Below are positions 3,356 to 25,283 of a stretch of DNA of 26,231 nt, piece after piece. A program made the position numbers and the translations under genes. Position 1 is the stretch's first letter. The number at the start of each line of letters is the position of its first letter. The stretch is from a virus, in IMG/VR virus record IMGVR_UViG_3300010151_000130, positions 1-26,231 of that record. One strand, given 5' to 3'. The notes under the pieces were generated by a model. It did not search any database, was not told the origin of the DNA, and was given only the letters and a program-made list of their open reading frames with translations.

Positions 3356-3700
3356 CTATTTATTTTGAGGGGGAATCAGATATGACATTGTGCCGTATTT
3401 CTCATCCATTATGATAATTGGAGTATTTGGATTTCTGTGAGCATATTCTCTTATATCTTGGTTTTCCATTACATCCATATCTAATTTTCTATTCCACCTT
3501 TCATATTTTTTTCTACCATAATTAGACCTCATAAATTCATCTGTTGTTACTTCAAAGACATCACAACCAGCAAATTTCTTTTTCTTTTTTCTTGGCTTAA
3601 CTGTAACGTCTAGTGGATTTTCGTTATATCCCATCCCCATTATTTCACCAGAAGATGCAATATTTGCAATTTCTTCTTTTATTTCTTTATAACTTTTCAT
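3356..3700 (-). CDS. Conserved-type small phage protein with T4-like leader
   Basis: This is a 114-residue protein. It begins MKSYKEIKEEI, close to the T4 internal-protein leader MKTYQEFIAEA, with an (I)xE site at residues 7-9. A lysine run (KPRKKKKKF) is followed by a compact region GCDVFEVTTDEF, RKKYERWNRKL, DIREYAHRNP and a C-terminal IIIMDEKYGTMSYL. From memory this GCDVF/RW/Y...N/GTMSYL pattern recurs in uncharacterised proteins of marine T4-like phages, but no name can be given. Its ATG overlaps the upstream stop (ATGA, 3697-3700), and an AATAAATA box (3720-3727) lies upstream. Function unknown; nucleic-acid binding is possible from the basic patch. Confidence 0.75.
   Translation of the reverse strand: MKSYKEIKEEIANIASSGEIMGMGYNENPLDVTVKPRKKKKKFAGCDVFEVTTDEFMRSNYGRKKYERWNRKLDMDVMENQDIREYAHRNPNTPIIIMDEKYGTMSYLIPPQNK
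3357..3364 (-). promoter_or_regulatory. Possible late promoter, one mismatch (AATAAATA)
   Basis: The leftward strand reads AATAAATA, one base from the T4 late consensus TATAAATA. It sits just inside the 3' end of the 3356-3700 gene and about 50 bases before the ATG at 3308, so it could drive the lipoprotein-like gene. Such AT-rich boxes occur by chance in this sequence, so confidence is low. Confidence 0.3.
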
Positions 3701-3914: not shown

Positions 3915-4418
3915 TCAATCTCCTTCAATTTGCGAAAAGTAAGAATCGTTATATTTATAAATTGGGACACCAAATGCATACCCGACACAATTATTATACT
4001 CAGTCTTCATTGCATTTCCAAATGCTTCTTCAGTTAACTCTTGTTCTACATCAATTCCTTCTTTACCAAGAAATTCTTTTATAAATTCTTCAAATTCCTG
4101 ACCATCTCCCCCCAGACTCTCTATGTCTTCTTTCACCAAAAACGTAGCAGTAGGAAGAGTGGTAAGCATAGAGCGAATTCTAGTATCGGGAACAAGAGCA
4201 AATATTTTTTTAATGTTTATTATTAACCTATCAAATATAGAAGAGGCTTCTCTTTCTTGTGAGGTTTTTAATTCGTGGGTTTTCTTCAAAAAGGTTCCAT
4301 GTCTGTCTATTATACCGAGTTTATATGCATCCATCAACTCAAAGGGCATTGTAATCGCTTTAATAAATTTATAGACAGTGAATGCATTGACAATTTTATT
4401 TAGATCTGCTGTTGACAT
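3915..4418 (-). CDS. Uncharacterised phage protein (167 aa)
   Basis: This protein is mostly helical. The N-terminal part contains FTVYKFIKAITMPFELMDAY and KLGIIDRHGTFLKK, then ASSIFDRLIINIKKIFALVP, and an acidic centre GGDGQEFEEFIKEFLGKEG. The VYKFIKAIT...FDRLIINIKK combination recurs, from memory, in uncharacterised proteins of T4-like marine phages. That fits the block of small genes here, but no function is known to me. It has a good ribosome site (GAAAGG, 7 bases before the ATG) and no membrane segment or signal. The stop codon lies three bases from the next start. It probably shares a transcript with the 4420-5277 genes. Confidence 0.8.
   Translation of the reverse strand: MSTADLNKIVNAFTVYKFIKAITMPFELMDAYKLGIIDRHGTFLKKTHELKTSQEREASSIFDRLIINIKKIFALVPDTRIRSMLTTLPTATFLVKEDIESLGGDGQEFEEFIKEFLGKEGIDVEQELTEEAFGNAMKTEYNNCVGYAFGVPIYKYNDSYFSQIEGD
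3952..3959 (-). promoter_or_regulatory. T4-type late promoter box TATAAATA
   Basis: This is an exact match on the leftward strand to the T4 late promoter -10 consensus. It lies 40 bases before the ATG at 3912, with an AAGGAG ribosome site between, and inside the 3' end of the upstream gene. T4 late promoters need no -35 and are read by host polymerase with the phage sigma factor and clamp; whether this phage has those factors cannot be seen here. Confidence 0.5.
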
Positions 4419-4419
4419 T

Positions 4420-4797
4420 TTATAACCTTTCTAGTACTGAAAATATTTTATTATCAAATGGAATTTTAATTATTTCCACTTCTGGTATTTCTTGTGGTAA
4501 ATAATTCAAATAATTTAAAAATGTTTTCAAATATGAGTGATATTGGCTTTCTATTTTGAAAAATAATATCCTAGAACAACCTAGCGGACCAAAAACATTA
4601 TTTAATACAATCATATGATTTAATATTAACCTTTCTTTAATTTCACCTTTTACATCAAATTTCTTCAATAACCTTTTAATATATTTAATCCGATTTAGAT
4701 CTTCATAAAATTCTTCTATACTCTCACATTGAGAATTTCGATATTCTCTCATAGCATATAGTAAAAAATTATCATCAGTCAATTTCTTTAAAATCAT
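4420..4797 (-). CDS. Conserved small phage protein of unknown function (125 aa)
   Basis: This is a helical 125-residue protein with a clear pattern: KLTDDNFLLYAMREY at the start, CESIEEFYEDLNRIKYIKRL, then ERLILNHMIVLNNVFGPLG, RILFFKIE, and LKTFLNYLNYLPQEIP near the end. The YIKRL...ERLILNH(I/M)IVL.NVFG signature is familiar from a family shared by many tailed phages and labelled only as a domain of unknown function; I do not trust my memory for its accession. No ribosome site is obvious. The 24-base gap to the upstream gene holds only AT-rich sequence, so coupling to that gene is likely. Function unknown. Confidence 0.8.
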   Translation of the reverse strand: MILKKLTDDNFLLYAMREYRNSQCESIEEFYEDLNRIKYIKRLLKKFDVKGEIKERLILNHMIVLNNVFGPLGCSRILFFKIESQYHSYLKTFLNYLNYLPQEIPEVEIIKIPFDNKIFSVLERL

Positions 4798-4821: not shown

Positions 4822-5277
4822 CTATTCCGAAGATGTAGGTGATATTGAAGGTGACATTTTATACAGACCACTTGGAAGTTTTTCTGTATTTACCTTTAAA
4901 CTATATGAATTTTCAGAATTAGAAATACCATCTGTTCTTTCAAATTCATCAAAGGGAGTGTCTGTACTTTTTCCAAACGTCCCACCATGTCTATTTACAG
5001 GATATTCTTTCATTCCTTCATATGATTTTTCTTGCGGATTGCATTCAAAATCATAACCAGCCATGTTTAATTTGTTTTTAATTTGAAATAGAGCACCCTT
5101 TGGGTCTAAGAATTCTCTACTAGAAACTGCATTCAAAAATGCATTAAGGCGAGATAATTGTTCTGGATCCTCAATTCGATGAACACCATAATCACTCATT
5201 GCACTACGAGCATCACCGCCCATAGGTGTGTCTTCCATTTCAGTTAATGTTGTTTTCAATTCGTTATATCGTTTCAT
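4822..5277 (-). CDS. Uncharacterised phage protein with capsid-targeting-like leader (151 aa)
   Basis: The N-terminus MKRYNELKTTLTEM resembles the T4 capsid-targeting leader, with an (L)xE site at residues 11-13. The central part contains GVHRIEDPEQLSRLNAFLNA and FLDPKGALFQIKNKLNMAGYDF, a compact helical region that from memory recurs in marine T4-like phage proteins. The C-terminal third is polar, glycine- and serine-rich and probably disordered. It has a strong ribosome site (AAAGGAG) and an exact TATAAATA late box 25 bases before the ATG, so it is probably a late gene and may head the 3.3-5.3 kb block. Function unknown. Confidence 0.8.
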   Translation of the reverse strand: MKRYNELKTTLTEMEDTPMGGDARSAMSDYGVHRIEDPEQLSRLNAFLNAVSSREFLDPKGALFQIKNKLNMAGYDFECNPQEKSYEGMKEYPVNRHGGTFGKSTDTPFDEFERTDGISNSENSYSLKVNTEKLPSGLYKMSPSISPTSSE

Positions 5278-9250: not shown

Positions 9251-11174
9251 TATTTTTACCTATTATTTTTGCAAATGGTGTATCTTTCAATAATCTTTTA
9301 AGTAATTCCTCAGTTCCAATTTCTCCAGCACCATACTCTTCATCAACAATAGGATCATATGAATCTTTAATTGCTCTATTTTTAGATGCATTCATAACTT
9401 GTAAATTAGACGAATTATTATTTTGCGGATTTCCGTCTTTATGGTGAACATCATTTCCATCACCCTTAGAAACCCTTCCTTTTTTTTCTAATTTTCTTCT
9501 GGCCAATACTCTATTAGTTCTGTTTGCTATCTGTTTTGGTTTTCCATGATATTCTCTATATTCTTTTTTGTAGTCTCTTTCCTCCTTTACTTCCGAAACG
9601 TGAACTTCGTCTGCTTTTGGATATTCTGGTCCCTCAATATAACCTTGACCATTTTCGGGTTTGTTAGAAACTGGAATTTTAAACTCTTTACCATTAACAG
9701 TAATAAAATTATATGCAACTTTTGGTTGTTCTTGTTTAACCAGGTGTAGTTTAACATTATATTCAAAGGAAAATTCATTTTCGCATATTAGTGCTATTAT
9801 TTCTGGTAAATTTTGTTCTATGAATTTCATAACATCAATTCGTTCATAGTTTCCCATTTGTTCTAATAAGCCATAATCTGTTAAAACAGAAGAAAGTTGA
9901 TGTAGATGTGGGATTGCAGATAATTTACCATCAAGTAAATATTTCAAGTTTGAAATATTTTTCTCTTTGTTTGTATTGGGTTTAAATTGAATCTTCAATT
10001 CAAATGCATCACTCTTAATGAGATTGTCGCAATATTCTAAATTTATAAAATTCGTAGTATGTGGTGTTAATACAATATCAGATGATGCCAATGGACCAAA
10101 TTTATGATTAATATCATAGGTATATTTTCCACTTAAGAGTTCATATAGCAAATGTGTCTTAAATTTGTCACTCTTTAAAGTTTTATACATGGTTGAACTG
10201 ATATTTTCTTTAATCTTCTTGAAGTTTATTTCTGGTTTATTAAAATTATTAATAAATTTTCTATAAACTTTGACCAGTTGGTTTTGATCCATTTTCAAAT
10301 AATTTGATATTGTGGTGATAATGGAGTTAGAAGTATTATTATCTTTTATATTAGACGAATTCAAATTACCTTCGAGGTTGATAGTAATACCCAACACAGC
10401 ATCATTTTCAGTAAATTCATTCAAATAATCTGTTTGGTCTGGATATAATAAAAGTTCACTTTTTGCATCTCTGAAATCGCCCATTCCCATTTCCGACCAA
10501 CTAGCAATACCAGCCAATCTTTGAGGTGTCCACCCTTCTTGATCAATCAATCTTCGTATAATATTTTTACAACTCTCGTAAATTTCTGGAGAAACTTGAG
10601 TTAGTTGTGGAGCAGCATCAACCCTCGACTGAATATCATCTTGACTGAATCCAGCAACTTGTATTGCTATGAGGGTTATAGCGTGTGCATAATGCACATT
10701 ATCACTAACTTCTTTAGGAATTTCCCCGACAACATTTGCTCTTTTTAGTGCATTGATGTCTCTTGGAGAAAGAGTTGCTCTAACTTCTTCTCGCCCTATA
10801 GTATCCAAGGAACGGGGAATACCATCTATGAAGTAATTCTGCTCATATTCCATTTGAGCAATTTCTTCTGGAGTGAATTGTGCTTCTTCTGGTTGTTGAG
10901 GATCATCTCCACCATCTTTAGAATTTGGAGGTGCTGGGGGATTTTCAGATCTTTCTACTCGTTTTCTGGCAGAATCACGATCTTTTTTGTTGTCTATACC
11001 TGTACCTTTTGACATCTCTGAATCCATTTTACTGGCTTTTGAAGATTTATCTTCAGATACAAATATATGAAAAGTGGAAAGGTTTTCTAAAATAAAAGGG
11101 TTTTTATTATATTCTTTGGAGAATTTAACAAATTCTGCCTCATTGAACCATATTGGATGTGTTTTTTCTTCCAT
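9225..11174 (-). CDS. 649-aa protein with C-terminal HNH motif
   Basis: The first ~45 residues form a small folded start. Residues 46-110 are polar with many K, E and P. Residues 110-270 are helical (EEIAQMEYEQNYF, LDTIGREEVRATLSPRDINA). The middle (270-510) is mixed alpha/beta, with LLYELLSGKYTYD and GPLASSDIVLTPHTTNF. Residues ~550-605 carry an HNH-type site: NRTNRVLARRKLEKKG, DVHHKDGNP (H577-H578) and NNNSSNLQVMNASKNRA. A VHHKDGN...NL pattern is typical of phage HNH nucleases that lack zinc knuckles. A nuclease motif fused to such a long unrelated body is unusual. Possible explanations are a homing-type insertion domain or a structural protein with nuclease activity. It has an AAAAAGG ribosome site and overlaps both neighbours (35 and 26 bp). 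The body is not recognised. Confidence 0.75.
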   Translation of the reverse strand: MEEKTHPIWFNEAEFVKFSKEYNKNPFILENLSTFHIFVSEDKSSKASKMDSEMSKGTGIDNKKDRDSARKRVERSENPPAPPNSKDGGDDPQQPEEAQFTPEEIAQMEYEQNYFIDGIPRSLDTIGREEVRATLSPRDINALKRANVVGEIPKEVSDNVHYAHAITLIAIQVAGFSQDDIQSRVDAAPQLTQVSPEIYESCKNIIRRLIDQEGWTPQRLAGIASWSEMGMGDFRDAKSELLLYPDQTDYLNEFTENDAVLGITINLEGNLNSSNIKDNNTSNSIITTISNYLKMDQNQLVKVYRKFINNFNKPEINFKKIKENISSTMYKTLKSDKFKTHLLYELLSGKYTYDINHKFGPLASSDIVLTPHTTNFINLEYCDNLIKSDAFELKIQFKPNTNKEKNISNLKYLLDGKLSAIPHLHQLSSVLTDYGLLEQMGNYERIDVMKFIEQNLPEIIALICENEFSFEYNVKLHLVKQEQPKVAYNFITVNGKEFKIPVSNKPENGQGYIEGPEYPKADEVHVSEVKEERDYKKEYREYHGKPKQIANRTNRVLARRKLEKKGRVSKGDGNDVHHKDGNPQNNNSSNLQVMNASKNRAIKDSYDPIVDEEYGAGEIGTEELLKRLLKDTPFAKIIGKNNARHNRRS

Positions 11175-11718
11175 GCAATAAACCTTTTTGGACTTCTTTA
11201 AATAACTGTTTAGAGTCAGATATATGTATATTTTTTGGCAAACCTATACAGAAATCCTGAAAATTATTGCTTTTAGCGAACTGTCTCATTTGTTTAGAAG
11301 ATATTCCTTCTATTGAAGTATTTTCAATTTTACTTCTGTCAACTGAGACGATTTTAAGAGAATCAATATCAAATTCAGATCCAACATAATGAAGCAATTT
11401 CTTTTCAAAAATCCTTTTTCTGTCAGATCCCACAACCATGATTAAATTCTTATATCCATCATTACTCAAATCTTTAATTACATCAAATATGCTTATTATG
11501 CTGTTTGATTTCTCTATTTTGACCCCCAAAATAATTTCAATGAACTTTACCTTTTCATCATAGGGGAGTGGATTTATTTTATTATCTTCTTTTTGTGAAG
11601 TATATACCCTATATGAACAACCCAAATGATTTGAAATTCTTTTCATTTCATTTATGATCTCTACATGACCTTTTGTTGGAGGGTTAAATCTACCAAAAGT
11701 AAAAACTACATCGTTCAT
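11140..11718 (-). CDS. HIGH-type nucleotidyltransferase (adenylyl/cytidylyltransferase fold)
   Basis: This 192-residue protein shows both signatures of the cytidylyltransferase superfamily: FGRFNPPTKGH at residues 8-18 (the T/HxGH nucleotide-binding motif) and ISSKQMR at 139-145 (the ISSxxxR phosphate-binding motif), with VVGSDR at 95-100 between. These enzymes join a nucleotide to a phosphate-bearing substrate; relatives include NMN adenylyltransferase (NAD synthesis), pantetheine-phosphate adenylyltransferase and glycerol-phosphate cytidylyltransferase. T4-like phages often carry NAD-related members, so an NMN-type role is plausible, but the substrate cannot be read from sequence. It overlaps the adhesin gene by ATGA and the next gene by 35 bp, so it is tightly co-translated. 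No other NAD gene is in view. Confidence 0.85.
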   Translation of the reverse strand: MNDVVFTFGRFNPPTKGHVEIINEMKRISNHLGCSYRVYTSQKEDNKINPLPYDEKVKFIEIILGVKIEKSNSIISIFDVIKDLSNDGYKNLIMVVGSDRKRIFEKKLLHYVGSEFDIDSLKIVSVDRSKIENTSIEGISSKQMRQFAKSNNFQDFCIGLPKNIHISDSKQLFKEVQKGLLHGRKNTSNMVQ

Positions 11719-16483: not shown

Positions 16484-17641
16484 TTAGTCAGTTTTATTTC
16501 CCCATGCGATGAAATTGTTCCGACTAAATTCCAATCTGTCTATCAATTTTATTATCTTATTTTTACCATCTACAACAACCAATCCCTCTGGTTGTGTTTC
16601 TTTGAGATTACCATCTATATCAAAAAAAGTATTAATATCATCTGTGTTATTTATTCTACTAATGAAGATATTTTTAATTTTTAATAATTTTCTCCGAATT
16701 TTAAAAAAAATCCTAATTTCAGCATCGTGGTCGTTTATGAAATCAAACAAAACCTTTCGTTTGTCGTCTCTTAATCTTTTACCCCGAATCGTTTTTAGTT
16801 TTAATTTTTCATCTTCTATTTTATCAGACAACCACTTCAGAAATGAATCTAAACTATCCTCTTTAATGTTATTCTTGACGTTGTGATTAAAATATTTATT
16901 TAAATATGACGTTAGGTAATTTTGGTCTTCAAGTTCATCGAGGAATGGTTCTAAACCAACGTTTTTAATCAATTTCATTTCAGAAGAAATTAAATTCTTT
17001 TCTCCATTTGTCAACAGAGAAATGTTTGTGTATGATGAATCAATAGCCCAAATATTTTTATTTTTCGCAAAGTTAGATATATCTGGACCATATTCTGGTC
17101 TCAGTTTAGAAATTTTCCTTCCAGAATATTTCGTATGAAAAACAATACCAAATTTAGAAGAATTGATTTTTTTACCCAATTTGCTGGAATTAACAACACT
17201 ATATGTTATAGTATTGGGTTTAAAGGTCAAATGCTTCTGATGGTTAATGGATCTCTTTCTGACCAGAGAAGGCCAAAATAACAAATCTCCCTGATAGATA
17301 CCATCTATTCCTAATTTAGAAAGTTCAACCAACAATGACGAAAGCAAATAAGATAAATTCTTATTATTTTTATAATTTTTCTTAATATCAGACAATGTGT
17401 AATTAAGAATTGGTATTTTATTAAATACACCCTTTGTGCCAATAAAGAATTTCCTATTTTCTGGATTTATTCCACACACAATACTAGGAGACCCGTCCCA
17501 TTTCAAAGAAGTTTTTATCTTTTTTGTTGGCGTTCCTGAAAATATCTTCTGCAATTCAGAAAAAAAGGAAAAGATTTCACCCATTCCTCTTTTTCCATGT
17601 AACATTAGATCTTCTGCATGTAAAATGGTAGTATTTTTCAT
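16484..17641 (-). CDS. Ligase-like KxDG nucleotidyltransferase
   Basis: The start is the ATG at 17641 (GGAGG eight bases upstream), not a TTG five codons earlier; it overlaps the exonuclease stop as ATGA. The 385-residue protein has the motif order of the DNA/RNA ligase and capping-enzyme superfamily: LKWDGSP with the nucleotide-accepting lysine K47, FFIGTKG at 65-71, YQGDLLFW at 116-123, EGLVVVDG at 352-359, and a final basic motif KIIKLID with K362/K365. It matches, from memory, a family of uncharacterised proteins in T4-like marine phages (KWDG.P.I.CG.NPE...FF.GTKGVF), listed I believe as DUF6267. No OB-fold is obvious. It could be a DNA or RNA ligase, or a nucleotidylating enzyme that modifies something else. 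The exonuclease upstream suggests end-processing. Confidence 0.8.
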   Translation of the reverse strand: MKNTTILHAEDLMLHGKRGMGEIFSFFSELQKIFSGTPTKKIKTSLKWDGSPSIVCGINPENRKFFIGTKGVFNKIPILNYTLSDIKKNYKNNKNLSYLLSSLLVELSKLGIDGIYQGDLLFWPSLVRKRSINHQKHLTFKPNTITYSVVNSSKLGKKINSSKFGIVFHTKYSGRKISKLRPEYGPDISNFAKNKNIWAIDSSYTNISLLTNGEKNLISSEMKLIKNVGLEPFLDELEDQNYLTSYLNKYFNHNVKNNIKEDSLDSFLKWLSDKIEDEKLKLKTIRGKRLRDDKRKVLFDFINDHDAEIRIFFKIRRKLLKIKNIFISRINNTDDINTFFDIDGNLKETQPEGLVVVDGKNKIIKLIDRLEFSRNNFIAWGNKTD

Positions 17642-18282
17642 ATATGTCCCCTCCAATATTCCTCAATAGTACCCTTAAGGGCTTTAACATAATTTTGGGG
17701 TTCTTTGATAAATTCTTGGACAATTCCTTCTTCGGAACTTATTAAAATCACAATCTGTTCTATAGGAATCCCAGTTCGTTCCTGCCACATTATAGCATAA
17801 GCAGTGGCTTGGAGAAAATAATTCTCTATTTCTGACTCTTTTTTGGGATTTGTGCTTCCCTTAAAGTCAATAATAGATAATTTTCCTTTATAATTAGCAA
17901 CACAGTCAACTCTGCCTGCAAGTTTCAATAGACTGCTCCAAAGAGGAACTTCTAAAGCATGAATAATATCAATATGATTGACTAAATAATCTTTTATCTG
18001 AAAGAATAGATCTTTAATATTCTCTTTATTTTCTAAAAAATTATCTTTTTCTAGAAGAAATTGCTCTATTGCTTCATGGAGATCATTTCCCCTCTTCAAA
18101 ACTCGTCTAGATTCTCTTGGGTTATTCTTTCTCCATTGTTTAAAGAATTGAGATTTTTTCCAACCCGTTACAGTAGTAACCGATGGGTATTTTCCCTCTG
18201 GAGAAATATAATACCTGCTATTATTTTCCATAATAGCAGGTATTTCGATTATATTATAATCATTTTTATGAATAAATGTCAT
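17638..18282 (-). CDS. PD-(D/E)xK exonuclease (RecB/MGME1-like)
   Basis: This 214-residue protein has the full set of RecB-family nuclease motifs: RGNDLHE (H69-E70), E111 in HALEVPLW, D126 in AGRVDCV, the catalytic IIDFKGS (D139, K141) and QATAY (Q158, Y162). The N-terminal RYYISPEGKYPSVTTVTG is characteristic of phage and mitochondrial MGME1-like exonucleases that trim single-stranded DNA ends. The ATG at 18282 has no ribosome site and lies about seven bases after a sigma70-like -10, so the message may be leaderless. An alternative ATG at codon 18 sits in the loop of a perfect hairpin. The first residues (FIHKNDYN) resemble other family members, which favours 18282. The stop overlaps the ligase-like gene (ATGA). 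Confidence 0.88.
   Translation of the reverse strand: MTFIHKNDYNIIEIPAIMENNSRYYISPEGKYPSVTTVTGWKKSQFFKQWRKNNPRESRRVLKRGNDLHEAIEQFLLEKDNFLENKENIKDLFFQIKDYLVNHIDIIHALEVPLWSSLLKLAGRVDCVANYKGKLSIIDFKGSTNPKKESEIENYFLQATAYAIMWQERTGIPIEQIVILISSEEGIVQEFIKEPQNYVKALKGTIEEYWRGHI
18210..18244 (-). other. Perfect 14-bp inverted repeat in the 5' coding region
   Basis: Arms 18210-18223 and 18231-18244 are perfect complements around a seven-base loop. In the leftward message this forms a strong hairpin covering codons ~14-25 of the exonuclease gene, with the in-frame ATG of codon 18 at the loop edge. No T tract follows on either strand, so it is not an intrinsic terminator. It could control translation, bind a protein, or be chance. 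Confidence 0.75.
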
Positions 18283-18642: not shown

Positions 18643-19443
18643 TTACCATTTCATTACACTCCTACCACTGTCATCAACTTGGTGTTTTGGTCCTTCTATG
18701 ACTCTGGCCAAATATGCTCCAGCCCATTTACCCAAACTATGCCTCATTGCTCTCCTCCTGTTACGTTTAATCTTTTTTCTTTCTGCTTTTGGAAGTTTTT
18801 TAAGATCCGCTTTTGAAAACTTATCAACTTTTGCAAATGGATTTGTCAATTTAAAATCATATTTTGGGGAGTCTGTCGTTGTTGATTCTGGATCAGACCG
18901 TCCAGCCTGTCTTGCTGTCCTTCTTGTTCTTTGTGCTGAAGGTCTATCTCTGTGTGATCCAGCAAGAGGAACTTCATCACCACCTTCACCACCAGCAACT
19001 GGGGTAAAACCATGTTGCGTGGTAAAATCTGCCACAGCACCATGCAACGGGGTGGATGATCTATCTCTTCCTGATAAATTAACTCCATGTGTTTCACGAG
19101 AGAGGGAAGATTGATATTTTTCTATCCCCTGTCTGAATCCTGAGAAAAAACCACCCCCACGAGCACGAGAAGGAGTTTCCACCGGTCTTGGTTTATCTGG
19201 TTCATATAGAACAATATTTTTCGGTCTTGGTTTATTTGGTTCATATAGAACAATATCTTTTGGATCTTTTGGATCTTTTGGTTTTGGATCTTTTGGTTTT
19301 GGATCTTTTGGTTTCTTTTTACCAAGCCACCGCTGAGCCGCTCGGGTGCGCCTGGGAGCAGAAGAACTAGCAGGATTTGCACTAATTGGGAGCCCCTTCT
19401 TGGGGCCCCTTGCTTCTAATAACCAATTATTAAACTGTAACAT
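18643..19443 (-). CDS. Very basic repeat-containing protein with capsid-targeting-like leader (266 aa)
   Basis: The leader MLQFNNWLLEARG matches the layout of T4 internal-protein leaders, with a predicted cut after LLE at residue 10 followed by A. After it come KP/D repeats (PKDPKPKDPK) and two copies of NIVLYEP-KPRP (about 64-88). A glycine/aromatic stretch GGGFFSGFRQGI follows. The C-terminal half is Arg/Lys-rich (RTRRTARQAGR, KKLPKAERKKIKRNRRRAMR). The protein is strongly basic overall and would bind DNA, as T4 internal proteins do in the head. It has an AAGGAC ribosome site and an exact TATAAATA box just upstream. An internal head protein is inferred from leader plus charge, not from homology. 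Confidence 0.75.
   Translation of the reverse strand: MLQFNNWLLEARGPKKGLPISANPASSSAPRRTRAAQRWLGKKKPKDPKPKDPKPKDPKDPKDIVLYEPNKPRPKNIVLYEPDKPRPVETPSRARGGGFFSGFRQGIEKYQSSLSRETHGVNLSGRDRSSTPLHGAVADFTTQHGFTPVAGGEGGDEVPLAGSHRDRPSAQRTRRTARQAGRSDPESTTTDSPKYDFKLTNPFAKVDKFSKADLKKLPKAERKKIKRNRRRAMRHSLGKWAGAYLARVIEGPKHQVDDSGRSVMKW
19184..19261. repeat. Tandem 39-bp repeat, two copies
   Basis: Units 19184-19222 and 19223-19261 differ at only a few bases and encode the duplicated NIVLYEP-KPRP segment. They are followed at 19262-19315 by shorter hexamer/15-bp repeats (GGATCTTTTGGTTTT type) encoding the PKDPK tract. Copy number is likely to vary. Confidence 0.8.
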
Positions 19444-19464
19444 ATTGAATGTCCTTCATTATTC

Positions 19465-19472
19465 TATTTATA
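19465..19472 (-). promoter_or_regulatory. T4-type late promoter box TATAAATA
   Basis: This is an exact consensus box on the leftward strand in the 32-bp gap between the 176-residue gene and the basic repeat protein. It is 22 bases before the ATG at 19443, leaving a very short leader that still contains AAGGAC. It supports late expression of the basic protein. Confidence 0.55.
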
Positions 19473-19475
19473 GAA

Positions 19476-20006
19476 TTAGGTATCCTTACGGGTGACAGAA
19501 ATTATTTTTTCTATTTGCTTTTTTAATTTAATTTCTCTATCGGGCCAATAGATGTAATTTTTATCTGATGATTTCATCAAATTATACAAAAGAGGAAGAA
19601 TCATTTCTTCAATGGATATCATTCTCTCTTTAGTATTTTGTTCCAATTCATGCTTTCTTTCTTCAATCTCATCTATAATGACCTTAATATTATCAGAATT
19701 ATTTTGCATGGCTTGTGAAAACTCATTAGTTTCGATATTCAATATCTTATCAATTTTTTCCTCAATCCTAGAAAAATCCAAATCATTAGAAATATTATCA
19801 TCATCAGAATCTAATAGCATAAAAATAGAGTTTATTCTGGAATTTATCTTTTCCATATTCTCTATGATTTCATCAGAAGAAACAACAGAAGATTGAACTT
19901 GTTCTTCTGATTCAACAGAATCATCGTCCACCGCAGTGAATCCGAAATCAAAATCCGTGTTGAAATATTCCTCTAAAGGAACAAATTGTTTTTCTGAATC
20001 AGACAT
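19476..20006 (-). CDS. Acidic coiled-coil phage protein with YIxWPDR motif (176 aa)
   Basis: Residues 1-55 are acidic and mostly disordered but include FDFGFTAVDDD. Residues ~45-140 are long amphipathic helices, likely coiled coil (ENMEKINSRINSIF, RIEEKIDKILNIE, EIEERKHELEQN). The end carries LPLLYNLMKSSDKNYIYWPDR and a last helix IKLKKQIEKIISVTR. The LLYNL...YI(Y/H)WP.R ending is, from memory, shared by uncharacterised T4-like phage proteins; I cannot name a function. The start overlaps the upstream stop by one base (TAATG) with no ribosome site, so translation depends on the upstream gene. It lacks a targeting-type leader. Confidence 0.8.
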   Translation of the reverse strand: MSDSEKQFVPLEEYFNTDFDFGFTAVDDDSVESEEQVQSSVVSSDEIIENMEKINSRINSIFMLLDSDDDNISNDLDFSRIEEKIDKILNIETNEFSQAMQNNSDNIKVIIDEIEERKHELEQNTKERMISIEEMILPLLYNLMKSSDKNYIYWPDREIKLKKQIEKIISVTRKDT

Positions 20007-20368
20007 TATGATGTTTTGTTTCTACTTGTTCTTTTTGAGGTCTGGGTCAAAAGTTCGGATCTTCTTTTGCCACCCAAAATTTTCAATCTGGTGTTTCTTA
20101 CATCGTGCGCACGTTTTCCTCTTGCACTTGCATACTTTCTTGTTAGTGGTAGTTTGTACTTTACATATTTTTCTTCTTCTTTGCCAGTATCGGCACCAGC
20201 GAAGAAATCCCATACTCTCCCAAGAATATTTCTATTCTCATTCAGCATAGAGACAAGATTATTCAATGCGAATATGTGCTCCAACACCAACTCTCGATTT
20301 TCCTTTTCGGTCAAATTGTCTTGTTTTATTTGATTTATAAAGTTCTCTACTAGTTCATTTCGTTCCAT
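20006..20368 (-). CDS. Small protein, helical N-half and basic C-half (120 aa)
   Basis: The first 60 residues are helical (ELVENFINQIKQ, ELVLEHIFALNNLVSMLNE), with an (L)xE site at residues 6-8. A short aromatic stretch, LGRVWDFFAGAD, leads to a strongly basic C-terminal half (YKLPLTRKYASARGKRAHDV, KRRSELLTQTSKRTSRNK) that probably binds nucleic acid. It has an AAAAGGA ribosome site eight bases before the ATG. It is the first gene of a leftward unit, divergent from the 83-residue gene, and is coupled to the acidic coiled-coil gene by a one-base overlap. A basic/acidic pair made together could form a complex, but this is inference. No family recognised. Confidence 0.75.
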   Translation of the reverse strand: MERNELVENFINQIKQDNLTEKENRELVLEHIFALNNLVSMLNENRNILGRVWDFFAGADTGKEEEKYVKYKLPLTRKYASARGKRAHDVRNTRLKILGGKRRSELLTQTSKRTSRNKTS

Positions 20369-20431
20369 AAGACAAATCCTTTTAAATAAATATTGATATA
20401 ATATATATAATAAGGAAAAGGAGACTTAGCC
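20369..20431. promoter_or_regulatory. Divergent AT-rich promoter region
   Basis: This 63-bp spacer is almost entirely A and T. Rightward it holds AATAAATA (20385-20392, one mismatch to the late box) and ATATATAATAA (20403-20413), followed by AAGGAG for the 83-residue gene. The ATATATAATAA string also occurs leftward at 8607-8617 and 22901-22911 before other starts. The leftward promoter for the 120-residue gene is not clear. Confidence 0.4.
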
Positions 20432-20683
20432 ATGATGGATGTATATCGAGGTCTATTTCTTGTAGATATAACGGGAGACGCAGGAATATCTGCAAATAAG
20501 GGTGTCATTCTCACAAGCAATAACACAACTGCCGTAACTGTAACACTAACCTTCTTTGATATTTTTGGTCTGACGGGAGCCACTGCTAATGTGTCCACAT
20601 CGGGCGGTCAACCAACCGTTGTTCCTATGATGGTGAAGGGTGTTGGAGCGGTTTCTGGAGGCAAAGTCTTAGGAATCAACTGA
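20432..20683 (+). CDS. Isolated rightward small beta-rich protein (83 aa)
   Basis: A strong AAGGAG site eight bases before the ATG at 20432 supports it. The product has short hydrophobic strands with G, T, S and N turns (VYRGLFLVDITGDAGI, KGVILTSNNTTAVTVTLTFF, PTVVPMMVKGVGAVSGGKV) and almost no charged residues after the start, so it is probably a small beta-sandwich or beta-roll. It lacks a signal peptide. It is the only rightward gene in the last ~24 kb and has its own promoter region, so it is expressed separately. Composition suggests a small virion or decoration protein, but no family is recognised. It ends 15 bp inside the convergent nucleotidyltransferase gene. Confidence 0.75.
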   Translation: MMDVYRGLFLVDITGDAGISANKGVILTSNNTTAVTVTLTFFDIFGLTGATANVSTSGGQPTVVPMMVKGVGAVSGGKVLGIN

Positions 20684-21586
20684 TTTATTATCCTCTATTT
20701 GTAGAGGATAATCAGCAAAAGACTTCAATTTTTTCGCTTCTCTTTTAGAGAGAGTTCCGTCGTCTCCGAGAACATTCTTTAAATCTTTATATAACCTGAT
20801 ATAATAATACTTCTCAAGCATCTTATAGATGACATTCTTGGGAAGTTTGTTATATTTCCCATACTTCTTTATTTGTTCTGGAGTCATATCACGATTAAAT
20901 CCATCATCTTTGGCTTTAGTGATATCCTGCCCTATATTGATAATGTCTTTCATATCTTGTTCTATTTCCTTCAATTTTCCGGAAACAGCAGTGCTCAGGT
21001 TGGCAACATCATCATCATCTAATTCTTCCAATTCCTTGAAGTCGATAAGATCACGAACAAATTCACCCTTAACAACATCTAAACCATAGACCTTATTTTT
21101 AAATTGCTTAACATATAAGTTTGCATCTATTGGAGAAGAGTCTGAAATTTTCTCAAATTTGTTTGTTCCTATGTTATAAACAGCATCAGATAAGTCATTT
21201 GCACGATTAAATATATTTTCGTCTACTATAACAAAATAGTTTATGGGGTGTTTAGTTCCTGTAATTTCTTTTCCATTAGCACGCAGTGCTTCTTTCTTCA
21301 GTTTATCATGCATCATTGCACGTTTCTCTACAGGAACATCAAAAAGAATATTAATATCTAAATCGGCATCTTTTCTATATTGTTTTGTTAGAATGGAACC
21401 TATCAATCTATAATCTTTAACCGATGCAATTTTAGAAAATTTTTCTATTTGCTTTTCTATTGTGCTTCTAATGTGTCGTTTTAATGTTGGACGTTTAGAA
21501 TGAAATCTATCAAAGATACTCCTCGAATAATCTTTCCGAGGAATATCAATGATAGATTCAATCAATTTGTTATATGTGAGTCCCAT
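20669..21586 (-). CDS. GSx(n)DxD nucleotidyltransferase with capsid-targeting-like leader (305 aa)
   Basis: The start is the ATG at 21586 (TGATG overlap with the upstream stop, GAGG just before), not the TTG one codon earlier. The leader MGLTYNKLIES has LIE at residues 8-10, the position of the T4 internal-protein cut. The core shows the polymerase-beta-type nucleotidyltransferase signature: IGSILTKQYRKDADLDINIL with G63-S64 and metal-binding D75 and D77; a third acid may be D121 or nearby in NYFVIVDE. The rest is helical and acidic (DFKELEELDDDDVANL). Family members transfer nucleotides to proteins, RNA or small molecules. Relatives with this layout are, from memory, found in T4-like marine phages. 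The target is unknown. If packaged, it could act on the host right after injection. Confidence 0.8.
   Translation of the reverse strand: MGLTYNKLIESIIDIPRKDYSRSIFDRFHSKRPTLKRHIRSTIEKQIEKFSKIASVKDYRLIGSILTKQYRKDADLDINILFDVPVEKRAMMHDKLKKEALRANGKEITGTKHPINYFVIVDENIFNRANDLSDAVYNIGTNKFEKISDSSPIDANLYVKQFKNKVYGLDVVKGEFVRDLIDFKELEELDDDDVANLSTAVSGKLKEIEQDMKDIINIGQDITKAKDDGFNRDMTPEQIKKYGKYNKLPKNVIYKMLEKYYYIRLYKDLKNVLGDDGTLSKREAKKLKSFADYPLQIEDNKSVDS
20687..20712. other. Perfect hairpin between convergent genes
   Basis: An 11-bp perfect stem (20687-20697 with 20702-20712) encloses the loop TTTG, just after the rightward stop at 20683 and inside the last codons of the leftward nucleotidyltransferase gene. 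Its position suits a transcription end for the rightward gene, but no T tract follows on either strand, so intrinsic termination would be weak. It may instead protect mRNA 3' ends. Confidence 0.55.
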
Positions 21587-21786
21587 CAATCCTCTTCAAA
21601 AATTTCCTCTGGATCATAGTTAAAATATTCATTCAAAGCAGCAGTAGTTATGTTCATATTTTCTAAAATTTCGTAAATATTTTCGGTCTCTATTGTTTCT
21701 TCTGTTAGGATACCACCTTCCATAAGGCCATCAAAAAAATCTGAAACAATTTGTTCGACTAATTCTTTATGTTCTAAATTGTGCAT
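21586..21786 (-). CDS. Small acidic protein (66 aa)
   Basis: This helical and strongly acidic protein begins MHNLEHKELVEQIVSDF, with an (L)xE site at residues 9-11, continues FDGLMEGGILTEETIETENI, and ends in ALNEYFNYDPEEIFEED. It has a strong ribosome site (AAAGGAG) before the ATG. The stop overlaps the nucleotidyltransferase ATG (TGATG), so the two are made together. A small acidic partner directly ahead of a nucleotidyltransferase could be an inhibitor or cofactor, as in toxin-antitoxin pairs, or just another small head protein. No family recognised. Confidence 0.7.
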   Translation of the reverse strand: MHNLEHKELVEQIVSDFFDGLMEGGILTEETIETENIYEILENMNITTAALNEYFNYDPEEIFEED

Positions 21787-21819
21787 AATTTGCTCCTTTA
21801 TTAATTTAGATTTTTTTCT

Positions 21820-21837
21820 AATCGTCTATAGACGATT
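21820..21837. other. 18-bp perfect palindrome in an intergenic gap
   Basis: AATCGTCTATAGACGATT is self-complementary over all 18 bases and lies in the 63-bp gap between two leftward genes. As RNA it makes a 7-bp stem with a TATA loop. As DNA it could be an operator for a dimeric protein. On neither strand is it followed by a T tract long enough for a terminator; the leftward continuation is A-rich. Confidence 0.6.
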
Positions 21838-21849
21838 TCATTTTATGTC

Positions 21850-22134
21850 TTATTTTGTTTTCTTTAACATTTCGTCTAATTGAAATGCTAAATTAAAGAT
21901 ATAATCAATTGCCTCATTAACATAAATGGCAGTGTCTTCTTCATTAAGAGATTCGTTTAAACTTCCATCTAGAATATCAGAAAGATATTGCTCTGCAAGA
22001 GAAAGCGACCCCCCTTCAATATTTTGAACCTCTGTTATTTCTTCATTGAGAGGTTCTGGTTGCGGGGAATGAGACACAACAACTTGCATTGCTGCATCTT
22101 TAAGGCTGTTATGGGAGTTTCTAGAAATTGTCAT
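21850..22134 (-). CDS. Small acidic protein with MTISR leader (94 aa)
   Basis: The first residues, MTISRNSHNSLKDAAM, match the start of the next upstream gene product (MTISRKTHNNLNEDIL), though the rest differs. The middle is acidic and repetitive (GSLNESLNEEDTAIYVNEA), and the C-terminal part is helical (IDYIFNLAFQLDEMLKKTK). It has an AAGGAA ribosome site. The shared leader suggests a common sorting or processing signal. Here the expected (L/I)xE cut is LKD at 11-13, with Asp for Glu, though PLNEE at 28-32 offers another site. No family recognised and no membrane segment. Confidence 0.7.
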   Translation of the reverse strand: MTISRNSHNSLKDAAMQVVVSHSPQPEPLNEEITEVQNIEGGSLSLAEQYLSDILDGSLNESLNEEDTAIYVNEAIDYIFNLAFQLDEMLKKTK

Positions 22135-22164
22135 AGTTAGGTTCCTTTTTATTTTCTAATTATA

Positions 22165-22887
22165 TTATCTATCTTCTGGATAAGTATATGGGGGATTTTT
22201 TTCTCCGCCCGGGTTTTCAATTTTCTTTTTTATGTCATATTTCCATTCCCCGGCATTCGGGTGGTCTTGTGCTGCTTTGAGAACTTCATGGTTGTCGCTG
22301 TGCTGCCACGCGTGCCATACAGTCTCTTCACCGGATTTGGGGTGTTTAAGTGCGGCTAGTGCAATATTGGGATTTTTATGGCCCCCCATAGGAGCAATAC
22401 TATCTTCATCAGAGTATGAGTGAGAAAGTATCAGGTTTCCAAGTTCGTCATCTTCCCGAGCATCATGATGCATCGATGCATGATATAATGTCTTGGTGTC
22501 CGCTTTTGAATGCTGAACAGCCGCTTTAACGACACTTAAATCATCATGCTTCGCAGCAATTCTTGTGTCGTGATGATCCGACAAAGAATGAGAAAGTGCA
22601 ACTTTAACAGTATCTGGATCATCACTACGAGCAAAATGTTCAACATGTTCTTTATTAGCATCAGAGTGCGATAATGCCATTTTGGCAATTTGATGCATGG
22701 TCACCTCGGATTTTGGTTTTTGAACATTCGGGTTCCGGCGAACAACCCGGACACCCTTTCGACCTTCTTCATCATGTGTGGACCAGTCTGGCCCGTGTCG
22801 CCGATCTTCGTTAATTGAGCGAGAAGGAAAAATAACATTCAATATATCTTCGTTCAAATTATTATGTGTTTTTCTTGATATTGTCAT
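22165..22887 (-). CDS. Helical-repeat protein with MTISR leader (240 aa)
   Basis: The leader MTISRKTHNNLNED has an (L)xE site at residues 11-13. A basic stretch (RKGVRVVRRNPNVQKPKS) follows. From ~60 to 220 there are about six divergent repeats of roughly 26 residues of the type (D)xxV..A..H(S/P)(x8-9)A..HxD, for example DDLSVVKAAVQHSKADTKTL and NPNIALAALKHPKSGEETV. They resemble variant leucine-rich (LRV) or HEAT-like helical repeats and match those of the 25336-26231 gene and the end of the 23032-24255 gene. These scaffolds usually bind protein. The C-terminus is polar (GGEKNPPYTYPEDR). The ribosome site is weak (AAAGAG). GC-richer than its neighbours. Confidence 0.75.
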   Translation of the reverse strand: MTISRKTHNNLNEDILNVIFPSRSINEDRRHGPDWSTHDEEGRKGVRVVRRNPNVQKPKSEVTMHQIAKMALSHSDANKEHVEHFARSDDPDTVKVALSHSLSDHHDTRIAAKHDDLSVVKAAVQHSKADTKTLYHASMHHDAREDDELGNLILSHSYSDEDSIAPMGGHKNPNIALAALKHPKSGEETVWHAWQHSDNHEVLKAAQDHPNAGEWKYDIKKKIENPGGEKNPPYTYPEDR

Positions 22888-22946
22888 TTGAGTGTTCTCT
22901 TTATTATATATTCTTTTGTTCTTCTTGTTACGACATTCGATGAACT

Positions 22947-23081
22947 TTACTTGAATGTTTGAGCAGAATAATCATCTACTGAGTCTAAAAACTGCACACA
23001 GGATTTTAATAAAATATTGGATCCAACTAATTCATATTTCTCTTCTGAGAGAATTTTGTTTTTCCAATTTTTTAAAAACAT
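22947..23081 (-). CDS. Short overlapping frame (44 aa): separate gene or frameshifted C-terminus
   Basis: A 44-codon frame starts at ATG 23081 inside the 3' end of the 407-residue gene (+1 frame, 50-bp overlap) and continues well past that gene's stop to TAA at 22947. Its sequence (MFLKNWKNKILSEEKYELVG, then SNILLKSCVQFLDSVDDY) reads like a real helical protein end and fills an otherwise empty gap. There is only a weak ribosome site (GGTGA). An A6 run at 23071-23076 lies in the overlap, so a +1 shift or an indel could instead join it to the helical-repeat protein. The remaining gap up to 22888 shows nothing else. Confidence 0.5.
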   Translation of the reverse strand: MFLKNWKNKILSEEKYELVGSNILLKSCVQFLDSVDDYSAQTFK

Positions 23082-24255
23082 ATTCACCAGCCTTAGGATG
23101 ATCTCTGATCTTTTTGGCTATTTCTGGATCATCTCTGTTTATTGGGGGTACAACCATACTTAAAGTAAAATCATCAACATTAGGATGATCTATGATCTTT
23201 CTGGCCATTTCTGGATCATCTCCGTGGTGAACTGCAATACGTGTTAAAAAAGCCGAAGAAACTTCACCAGCCTTAGGATGACCCATGATCTTTCTGACTA
23301 CTTCTGGTTCATCATGATGGTGATCTATCATTATTCTCATACTACGTTCCTCGCCGTCGGTCCATGCGGCATTGAATTTAGGATTATTTAAAACACCCTT
23401 CCAATCACCTTTATATCCACCCGGAAACGTGAATTGATGATGCACTTGTTGTTCAGATCTTTTTGGCAATAACTCGTGTGTTTTTTCTGCCACTTCATCA
23501 TGATTTTCAATAAGAGAATTCTGGCTGTCAACAATTCCTCTATCCGAATATCCATGACCAAGAACGGGATGTGTTGTTCCTTCTTTGGTGTAGAGCATGA
23601 ATCCATGTCCCTGAGAATATCCTGTCATGAATTGGTCATTAGAAGCAACACACCAAGTAGCATTCTCCCCGCAACTTGGTTTTATGAATTCCCTTTGTGC
23701 TTGTTTGACTCTATCTTTTCCATGCGTCTTATTGTGGAAATTATAAACATCCAATGGACCATGAGAATCAGTTTCAATTGTCCCCAATTTATGCTCGGAA
23801 AACTCATCCAGAATCTTTCTTTCTTTTTCTGAGCCACCCATATGTTTCTTTGATTCTATTGGATGAACTTCATCCAAGTGTTCAGTTGCATGTTCTGGAG
23901 TGTGATACCACCCAATATTGTGTTCGGGATCAACTTTCCCCTTAGCCTTCGCACTCCTATACCTTTTCATGATATTCTTGACCATTGGAGAATCTTCATT
24001 ATCTTCATGTCGCACATGATCATCAAGAACCCATTTGGCAACAATCATTCTTTCAGCATGATTCTGACCGTGGTCTATAGAAAATTCCATAGCACCACGC
24101 ATCCATTTGTTCCAGTCTGACCAGTTATTCAACTCATCGCCTGCGTTTTGAACGTCATGATCTTTATGCAATTTCATAAAGCGATTGATTTCATTCTCTC
24201 TGGCTTCAAAGAGATAGTTCTCGTTAATAAATCTTATAAATCTTATAATGCTCAT
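23032..24255 (-). CDS. TWCVAS-domain protein with C-terminal helical repeats (407 aa)
   Basis: The leader (FIRFINENYLFEARENE) contains LFE followed by A at residues 15-18, and INE at 10-12, both possible prohead-protease sites. Residues ~25-130 are helical, His- and Trp-rich. A globular alpha/beta domain at ~150-265 contains GENATWCVASNDQFMTGYS (C202) and GFMLYTKEG, ending GIVDSQNSLI. From memory a WC(T/V)AS...YS...LY core recurs in large phage proteins, often beside helical repeats, but no activity is known to me. Residues 305-395 hold about three repeats (DEPEVVRKIMGHPKAGEVSS, DDPEMARKIIDHPNVDDF, DDPEIAKKIRDHPKAGEY) related to the flanking repeat genes. It overlaps the upstream gene as ATGA. 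The C-terminus may be extended by the frame at 22947-23081. Confidence 0.75.
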   Translation of the reverse strand: MSIIRFIRFINENYLFEARENEINRFMKLHKDHDVQNAGDELNNWSDWNKWMRGAMEFSIDHGQNHAERMIVAKWVLDDHVRHEDNEDSPMVKNIMKRYRSAKAKGKVDPEHNIGWYHTPEHATEHLDEVHPIESKKHMGGSEKERKILDEFSEHKLGTIETDSHGPLDVYNFHNKTHGKDRVKQAQREFIKPSCGENATWCVASNDQFMTGYSQGHGFMLYTKEGTTHPVLGHGYSDRGIVDSQNSLIENHDEVAEKTHELLPKRSEQQVHHQFTFPGGYKGDWKGVLNNPKFNAAWTDGEERSMRIMIDHHHDEPEVVRKIMGHPKAGEVSSAFLTRIAVHHGDDPEMARKIIDHPNVDDFTLSMVVPPINRDDPEIAKKIRDHPKAGEYVFKKLEKQNSLRREI

Positions 24256-25283
24256 TTTTTCACACCCTTTGCTTTATTTTTCCAAAACAAATTCCGTAGT
24301 TTTCCAATAAAATTTGATTGCTTATACTTCTTCCAAGATGTGTCATCAGTCGCATGATGTGTAGGAGGTGTCGCCACAACATCTTCATTTGTTGGATTTG
24401 TTGGACGCCTATGACGATGCAAATGTCTATGGAACATATCCATTTGTTTCTGTGAACGTTTTAAATCTTCTGGTGTGGGTGTGGTTAATGAAATATGCCT
24501 TCTTTGCTCTGAAGAAAGAGCAGATTTATCTGGGGGGTCTTCGGGGGGACTTTCCCCACGAAGTTGCCTCAGTTGTTTTTCCATACTATAAAGGTTGTTA
24601 AGTGCAATAATTTCATGTTCAGTCTCAACAGAAGACTTCCGTCTTGGAGGTGGGTCCGACCCCCACATTCCAGCATTATCGCCAATGGAAGAAGATAAAT
24701 CCCCCTGTGTTCTTCTACTCTGTAACATATCCTCCTGTTTTCTTCTACCCCTTATTGCATCATACACACCTCTTGTTCCTTCTTTTTTACGGGTTAATTC
24801 TTTTATTTTTTTTCTACGTCTTATTATGTCTCTAATACCTTCATATAAAGATTCTCCCATAATATCATGGAAACGATGTGCAGACTTTAATGAATCATCA
24901 GGAACAGAATGTGCTAATTCCCTTGCAAGTGTTAATGTATTATTAATACGCTCAGAATCAATCCCTGCTTCTTTCATGTGATCTGCAATATCATCATGAC
25001 GGTGAGTGGTTCTCATTTGTTTATTGTAGTGGTTATTCTGTTGATCATGGAAGTCATGTCTTCTTTGATCTTCTGGAGACATTCTATTCTTCATTGACAC
25101 ATAGGAATCATGTGATGTGCCTCTTCTTCCGTATTTGTTTTCTATTTGTTGTAATTTCTTCACATGAAAGTCGGACTGTCTTCCTGCAAGATGCCAATTG
25201 AATGCCTGTTTTCCGAGGTTATTCAATTGTTCTTGATGGTGGTCAGAAGTTTGTTCTTTTATGAATATATTGAACTTTTTCAT
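24252..25283 (-). CDS. His/Arg-rich helical protein with capsid-targeting-like leader (343 aa)
   Basis: The leader MKKFNIFIKEQ is the closest in the window to the T4 pattern MKTYQEFIAEA, with IKE at residues 8-10. The remainder is almost all charged helix: DHHQEQLNNLGKQAFNWHLA, SPEDQRRHDFHDQQNNHYNK, a basic stretch IRDIIRRRKKIKELTRKK, then polar and proline-rich linkers (SDPPPRRKS, ESPPEDPPDKS) and HRHLHRHRRPTNPT near the end. It is strongly basic with many histidines, suggesting DNA contact inside the head. No enzyme motif or membrane segment is seen. It has an AGGTG ribosome site, and its stop overlaps the next ATG (ATGA). No family recognised. Confidence 0.72.
   Translation of the reverse strand: MKKFNIFIKEQTSDHHQEQLNNLGKQAFNWHLAGRQSDFHVKKLQQIENKYGRRGTSHDSYVSMKNRMSPEDQRRHDFHDQQNNHYNKQMRTTHRHDDIADHMKEAGIDSERINNTLTLARELAHSVPDDSLKSAHRFHDIMGESLYEGIRDIIRRRKKIKELTRKKEGTRGVYDAIRGRRKQEDMLQSRRTQGDLSSSIGDNAGMWGSDPPPRRKSSVETEHEIIALNNLYSMEKQLRQLRGESPPEDPPDKSALSSEQRRHISLTTPTPEDLKRSQKQMDMFHRHLHRHRRPTNPTNEDVVATPPTHHATDDTSWKKYKQSNFIGKLRNLFWKNKAKGVKK

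Follow-up and report, generated by a model that had tools for sequence, protein, structure and literature searches.

The 26,231-base virus fragment analysed here (IMG/VR record IMGVR_UViG_3300010151_000130; the whole stretch is called the window), on which 26 genes were counted, encodes several proteins that begin with a short stretch closed by (L/I)xE, as do the proteins that phage T4 loads into its head. For the T4 internal protein IPIII, the first ten residues are enough for packaging; mutagenesis has assigned residues 4 and 7 to targeting and residues 8 and 10 to processing, an Asp at residue 10 stopping processing and not targeting (PMC9026906). Genes are named below by their lower coordinate, and the leader genes lie on the minus strand, as do the DUF6267, cytidylyltransferase, exonuclease, phrog_407 and phrog_18642/2086 genes described below. 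The most defensible reading of their sequences is that 18643, 24252 and 23032, joined by 20669 and 4822 on family evidence, carry T4-type capsid-targeting leaders. The window would then encode no fewer than three leader-bearing proteins, five or six being the probable number.

Genes with leader-like N-termini

Two basic proteins match all four T4-mapped positions. The product of 24252..25283 (343 residues, isoelectric point (pI) 9.9) has an orphan body that matches nothing in Pfam and nothing significantly among the PHROGs, and starts with MKKFNIFIKE followed by Q (leader at 25254..25283; F4, F7, I8, E10), while that of 18643..19443 (266 residues, very basic with pI 10.6, KDPKP repeats, no significant family) starts with MLQFNNWLLE followed by AR (19414..19443; F4, W7, L8, E10, A11). 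The 407-residue product of 23032..24255, for which no relatives were found and whose C-terminal portion holds His/Asp-rich repeats, has as candidate leader (24220..24255) MSIIRFIRFINE followed by N, ending at E12 with a two-residue shift, or alternatively LFE followed by AR at E17. The gene at 20669..21586, read from the ATG at 21586, encodes a nucleotidyltransferase-fold protein (PF01909, Pfam E=1.5e-5) that begins with MGLTYNKLIE and then SIIDIPR (21557..21586; E10); its predicted fold is similar, at weak significance, to those of AadA, MNT and CD-NTases, and since confidence in the model is modest, assignment to one specific enzyme is not claimed. A conserved 151-residue protein (4822..5277), with 46% identity to a protein of locus L015 and relatives in 10 loci, has MKRYNELKTTLTE followed by M (5239..5277; E13), and the gene at 3356..3700 has a weak candidate, MKSYKEIKEE followed by I (E9), with MKTYEKLIEE and MKTYRELTEE in relatives. 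Leader sequences among the window proteins are given by MLQFNNWLLEAR and, for 24252, MKKFNIFIKEQ. In 18643, 24252, 20669, 23032 and 4822, (L/I)xE closes an N-terminal leader of about 10–19 residues, and aromatic or hydrophobic residues at 4 and 7 relative to E10 occur in 18643, 24252 and, shifted, 23032. The bodies behind these leaders share no family, and one type of leader stands on non-homologous bodies.

An earlier note on this DNA had listed ten such genes, and all ten positions of the motif were correct on re-check, those besides the six above being E11 in 5314, E8 in 20006, E11 in 21586 and E13 in 22165. Its statement that the nearby exonuclease is free of the motif was wrong: the PD-(D/E)XK exonuclease (phrog_298, 17638..18282, MTFIHKNDYNIIE) has IIE at E13, a chance match, and 19476-20006 carries LEE at E13, so that the loose motif also occurs outside the proposed leader genes. 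The motif is present in 12 of the 26 window genes and in 82 of 552 genes (15%) of five related phages, a significant enrichment (Fisher p=2e-4), with about four window matches expected by chance at the 15% background. Because it matches the exonuclease and 15% of the relatives' genes, the loose motif was dropped as a criterion.

A position-specific profile was built instead from 32 leaders of DUF6267 proteins, whose homologues had been gathered from viral contigs by profile alignment; the leaders came from other phages and none from the window, and two of them (MLIEDVLTE, MLIEEVLNE) were anchored on the wrong glutamate, with a small effect on the columns. Against a null of 2353 internal-Met pseudo-starts, five of the 26 window genes scored at p<0.01 (0.26 expected; binomial p=5.5e-6), a rate also above the 16/552 found among the relatives' genes (p=0.0015). 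These were 24252 (score 10.8, p=0.0008), 18643 (8.6, p=0.0013), 23032 (5.8, p=0.0013), 4822 (4.5, p=0.005) and 20669 (4.2, p=0.006). Gene 3356 was borderline (p=0.04), and p was about 0.1 or more for 5314, 20006, 21586 and 22165, which are chance-like. As positive controls, T4 IPII and IPIII both scored 15.3; the leader of T4 Alt scored low (-0.2). Over the relatives' loci, a score of at least 8 was reached by 112 of 1909 gene calls and by 9 of 4415 internal Mets. The high scorers fall into many unrelated clusters, the largest of which is DUF6267, itself the training family, and others of which belong by Pfam to adenylate kinases, zeta-toxin/AAA_33 kinases, NT5C-type nucleotidases and DUF6321.

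Leaders in related families and in cyanophage virions

The DUF6267 gene of the window (16484..17641, Pfam E=1e-85), ligase/nucleotidyltransferase-like, is leaderless here, and the leader is present in relatives. The start could be read at 78 environmental loci, which gave 63 distinct leaders, and 49 of the 63 end in [LIVMF]xE right before the conserved start of the domain, KNTHLEHLED (e.g., MYSFKQYLNE then AKNTH, MLSFKQYLTE then GKNTH, MNRFAQYISE then AKNVH, and MKFTEYLTE then GKEGKN). The residues vary while the pattern M-x-x-F-x-x-(Y/F)-(L/I)-x-E is kept: in the profile set, Phe stands six residues before the glutamate in 26/30 and Tyr or Phe three before it in 30/30, neither position having been used in selection. 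One lineage of the family (L031, L038, L047, L053, L056, L062, L063, L067, L076 and others) begins with MFSFKGF(I/V/F)T(K/T/R), in which F4 and F7 are kept and the cleavage residue E10 is lost. The domain has the motifs KxDG, EGxV and KLxDR, and its structural model (mean predicted local distance difference test score 86) finds DNA/RNA ligases and capping enzymes as its top, weak matches; with a fold match of only E=0.02, a proven ligase is not claimed.

All 14 aligned sequences of the 20669 family keep the leader glutamate, often within FKD(F/Y)(I/L)KE followed by (S/A)(I/V)IDIPR, and in L108, as in some other relatives, the site (LKE followed by SIIDIP) is internal to a fused protein. Relatives of 4822 start with MKTFKQHIKE, MKSFKQHIKE or MKNFKNHIAE, and the nearest, that of L015, with MIKFKELNTFLTTLFE. 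No relatives of 18643, 23032 and 24252 were found, so that support for these three consists of the profile score and the agreement with the T4 positions. Over 4081 bases a strain, L097, matches the window at 99.88% identity; at window position 23063 the two diverge sharply (L097:1-1524), L097 carrying upstream a different gene where the window has 23032, so that part of the cargo, 23032 included, is apparently accessory, although assembly error might account for the difference. The corresponding block of relatives, between gp41 and gp61, carries leaders of exact T4 form, and in relatives the leader is found on cytidylyltransferase, nucleotidyltransferase, DUF6267, adenylate-kinase-like and zeta-toxin-like kinases, and nucleotidase. 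For the C48C1 cytidyltransferase (L007:21567-22998), the true start probably precedes the annotated one (MNPPTIGH), as reading further upstream in frame gives the leader KNFSQYLLEEEREVYFTFGRMNPP.

The processing enzyme is represented in the relatives. Pelagibacter phage HTVC008M and phage C48C1 encode gp21 homologues that keep the T4 gp21 stretches GEL.HP, GVS(S/T)RG.GSL and D.V..PSAP, and the N-terminal arms of their capsid proteins contain an FLGE or FLTE site (the HTVC008M site being set some columns apart by the aligner), to be compared with FLTE followed by A in T4 gp23. Cyanophage S-CREM2 also has a gp21-type protease and an (L/I)xE site in its capsid protein.

S-CREM2 virions have been analysed by mass spectrometry (PMC10665884). 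Seven of the 215 S-CREM2 genes score at least 8 on the profile, and five of the seven products were detected in virions: the cytidylyltransferase gp154 (MKNFSSFLTE then A), the APH/ChoK-like kinase gp14 (MKRFDAFLTE then E), gp13 (MKDLHSFLTE then Q), gp136 (MQTFSMFFSE then D) and the S-adenosylmethionine (SAM) hydrolase gp6 (MKDFDSFLEE then F); the two others are 55-residue open reading frames. Outside the structural regions, 4/6 leader genes and 9/157 other genes were detected (Fisher p=3.4e-4), the exclusion of those regions being our choice and p being 0.01 without it. The virion-detected NMNAT of S-SCSM1 starts with MKSFLQFLKE followed by A, with six block neighbours annotated as virion proteins, and the cytidylyltransferase reported in S-SZBM1 virions with MRFRQFIIE followed by A; the leader is thus present in 3/3 of the cytidylyltransferases reported in S-CREM2, S-SCSM1 and S-SZBM1 virions. 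Virions of S-SM1 contain the cytidylyltransferase GC190 (PMC3037559). The window homologue, a cytidylyltransferase/NMNAT-like protein (phrog_3041/395, 11140..11718; 30% identity to S-CREM2 gp154, E=3e-26), is leaderless, although its cyanophage homologues are leader-bearing and virion-detected.

Gene 3356 possibly belongs to the family of S-CREM2 gp160 and SSCSM1_97, both virion-detected; BLAST gave no link between the window 3356 protein and gp160. A GFTGxxAxxGPxAGxDPxM-like motif of the N-terminal arm of the S-CREM2 capsid protein (L177 gp145) recurs in gp160 and SSCSM1_97 (L184:1522-1707) and partly in a relative of 3356 (L015:10272-11084). The virion-detected 'Cas9' of S-CREM2, gp12 (L178:7704-10313), has no Pfam match at E<=0.01 and an offset leader-like stretch, LRFASFMAE followed by A, at residues 17-25.

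The surrounding gene block

The window genes match T4-superfamily families, chiefly those of marine Kyanoviridae: exonuclease phrog_298, DUF6267/phrog_455, cytidylyltransferase phrog_3041/395, phrog_407 (4420..4797, leaderless, adjoining 4822), phrog_18642/2086 (3915..4418, likewise leaderless) and RuvC phrog_159. The phrog_407 and phrog_18642/2086 genes mark the conserved gp41–gp61 block; in HTVC008M and several cyanophages, DUF6267, cytidylyltransferase and phrog_407 are located between gp41 (helicase) and gp61 (primase). With phrog_407, DUF6267, cytidylyltransferase, phrog_298 and RuvC phrog_159 all present, the fragment is, judged from its gene families, assigned to a Kyanoviridae-like phage of the T4 superfamily, the family rank being unproven because hallmark genes (terminase, capsid) are absent from the fragment, and the window looks like a rearranged gp41–gp61 block with many orphan genes. 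Its closest annotated relatives, at about 30–50% identity, are HTVC008M, Methylophilales phage Melnitz-3, C48C1 and cyanophages. Among phages, neither megablast with the right-hand half of the window nor tblastn with the 23032, 25336 and 20669 proteins gave a match, single-protein contig scans with DUF6267, 23032 and 25336 found no relatives, and no internal-protein (IPI–III) family occurs among the Pfam/PHROG matches of the window proteins.

Other genes of the window encode a lipoprotein-like protease of the trypsin family (PF00089), at 760-1500 next to RuvC and read from the opposite strand, and a cysteine-rich repetitive protein of 1537 residues (11715-16328) with no Pfam/PHROG match. The proteins of 22165-22887 and 25336-26220, the latter gene extending up to the contig end, contain His-rich repeats of about 20 residues (type HPKxxxxAVxxAAxHxDxSVxxAAL) and match no Pfam family. 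The adjoining genes 21850-22134 and 22165-22887 have a common start, MTISR..HN.L, and different bodies, with (L/I)xE in only one of the two.

Predicted function and comparison with known systems

The leader stands above background, its motif is kept across families, and it is associated with virion detection in S-CREM2. The most likely reading, in our judgement, is that these are T4-type leaders and that their proteins are packaged in the head, lose the leader by cleavage behind the glutamate and pass into the host. In the predicted mechanism, the leader, with aromatics at about positions 4 and 7 followed by (L/I)xE, would attach to the prohead core while the head is being built. Cleavage behind the glutamate by the gp21-type protease of the phage would leave the shortened body enclosed together with the DNA, and at infection this body would pass into the host. 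The bodies are diverse, among them very basic proteins, a protein with repeats and a nucleotidyltransferase. The gp41–gp61 block of a Kyanoviridae-like phage may serve as a site for such cargo, which we infer to act in early host take-over or counter-defence, e.g., by modifying host RNA, protein or nucleotide pools. The general idea of T4-like phages loading various proteins in this way is already in the T4 literature (PMC9026906). The capsid-targeting reading proposed in the earlier note thus holds for about half of its genes, given the leaders in relatives, gp21 and the S-CREM2 virions; its list was over-inclusive, and the host injection that it proposed, like targeting and cleavage in this phage, is what the likeness to T4 would predict.

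Several observations weigh against this reading. No protease, scaffold or capsid gene was recognised on the 26-kb fragment, so that the protease and its specificity are borrowed from relatives; a gp21 family search of the fragment gave no match, but its controls matched nowhere either, and it carries no weight alone. HTVC008M shows hardly any excess of profile matches (4/197 genes at p<0.01), and a replication gene of C48C1, UvsW (MKDYSHFMVEA), also scores high. Genes 20669 and 4822 lack aromatics at 4 and 7, though many of their relatives have them; the DUF6267 and cytidylyltransferase of the window lack the leader of their families; and none of the leader-bearing window proteins is closely related to a protein detected in virions.

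That the matches merely reflect short Lys/Leu/Glu-rich N-termini fitting a loose pattern is improbable. The frequency of the motif in related phages, its occurrence in the exonuclease and 19476, and the four chance-like genes among the ten listed all speak for chance, which indeed stands as the explanation for 5314, 20006, 21586 and 22165; for the set as a whole it is already refuted by the pass rate on a profile trained elsewhere, by conservation within families and by the association with virion detection. It is unlikely, though with a larger share of plausibility, that the leaders, though targeting tags, serve scaffold or core functions, and that the proteins help build the prohead and stay undelivered: T4 core proteins too are cut at (L/I)xE (PMC9026906), and the small basic 18643 and 24252 could be DNA-condensing core components, yet enzymes are found among the cargo, near-identical strains differ in part of it, and many T4 internal proteins and Alt are ejected (PMC9026906).

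Very little probability attaches to the view that the conserved N-termini serve other ends, such as folding, the control of translation or contact with a partner common to them, and that the virion enzymes are co-purified. The authors of the S-CREM2 and S-SCSM1 studies themselves caution that enzymes may co-purify, and the internal-Met null contains no model of N-terminal codon bias. However, the N-termini of HTVC008M, phiM12 and a Rhizobium phage are little inflated (5/286 genes at p<0.01, 2.9 expected), the motif falls on the four T4-mapped positions, and polymerase, clamp, helicase and like replication proteins are absent from the S-CREM2 virion list. NMNAT-like enzymes have repeatedly been seen in cyanophage virions and explained as cargo or as contaminant, two cases that a leader would separate by sequence; its presence argues that cytidylyltransferase-type virion enzymes would be cargo rather than contaminants.

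Beyond the preferred reading of T4-type packaging and ejection, we tentatively suggest, at somewhat less than even confidence, that marine T4-like phages might fill the head, by means of a swappable capsid tag, with an enzyme kit (nucleotidyltransferase, NMNAT/cytidylyltransferase, kinases, nucleotidase, ligase-like DUF6267), the tag being gained or lost before the same enzyme between lineages and the MFSFKGF(I/V/F)TK lineage being packaged untrimmed, and that the kit might act on host nucleic acids or nicotinamide adenine dinucleotide (NAD) at entry, before phage transcription. Among the unknown genes of abundant marine phages, the leader would point out those whose products are delivered as infection begins, and it would give exact predicted N-termini that could be searched for in existing mass-spectrometry data. 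A search of open-access papers turned up no account of leaders of this kind in either cyanophages or pelagiphages.

The window genes are worth comparing with T4 IPI, IPII and IPIII, with which they share a short N-terminal leader (in 18643 and 24252 one of ten residues with aromatics at 4 and 7, Leu or Ile at 8 and E10), placed on unrelated bodies, a gp21-type protease (in relatives of the window phage) and variable loci, the ip loci of T-even phages being variable as well (PMC12373910). In contrast to IPI–III, no similar body was found, enzymes are among the cargo, many genes are clustered in the gp41–gp61 block, and E10 is missing in some relatives of the window phage. T4 Alt, a packaged and injected ADP-ribosyltransferase, is likewise a head-carried enzyme with a short N-terminal propeptide, whereas the window cargo has a nucleotidyltransferase and no recognised ADP-ribosyltransferase. 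The virion cytidylyltransferase/NMNAT proteins and the APH/ChoK-like kinase of S-CREM2, S-SCSM1, S-SZBM1 and S-SM1 come from what is apparently the same phage family, and the cytidylyltransferase also from the same gene group; three cytidylyltransferases (S-CREM2, S-SCSM1, S-SZBM1) and the S-CREM2 kinase bear the leader, unlike the window cytidylyltransferase. The inner-body and ejection proteins of phiKZ and SPN3US belong to a different phage group and have a different cleavage motif and different propeptides. As is predicted for the proteins considered here, they reside inside the capsid and are cut behind a glutamate by a protease related to gp21 (PMC9026906).

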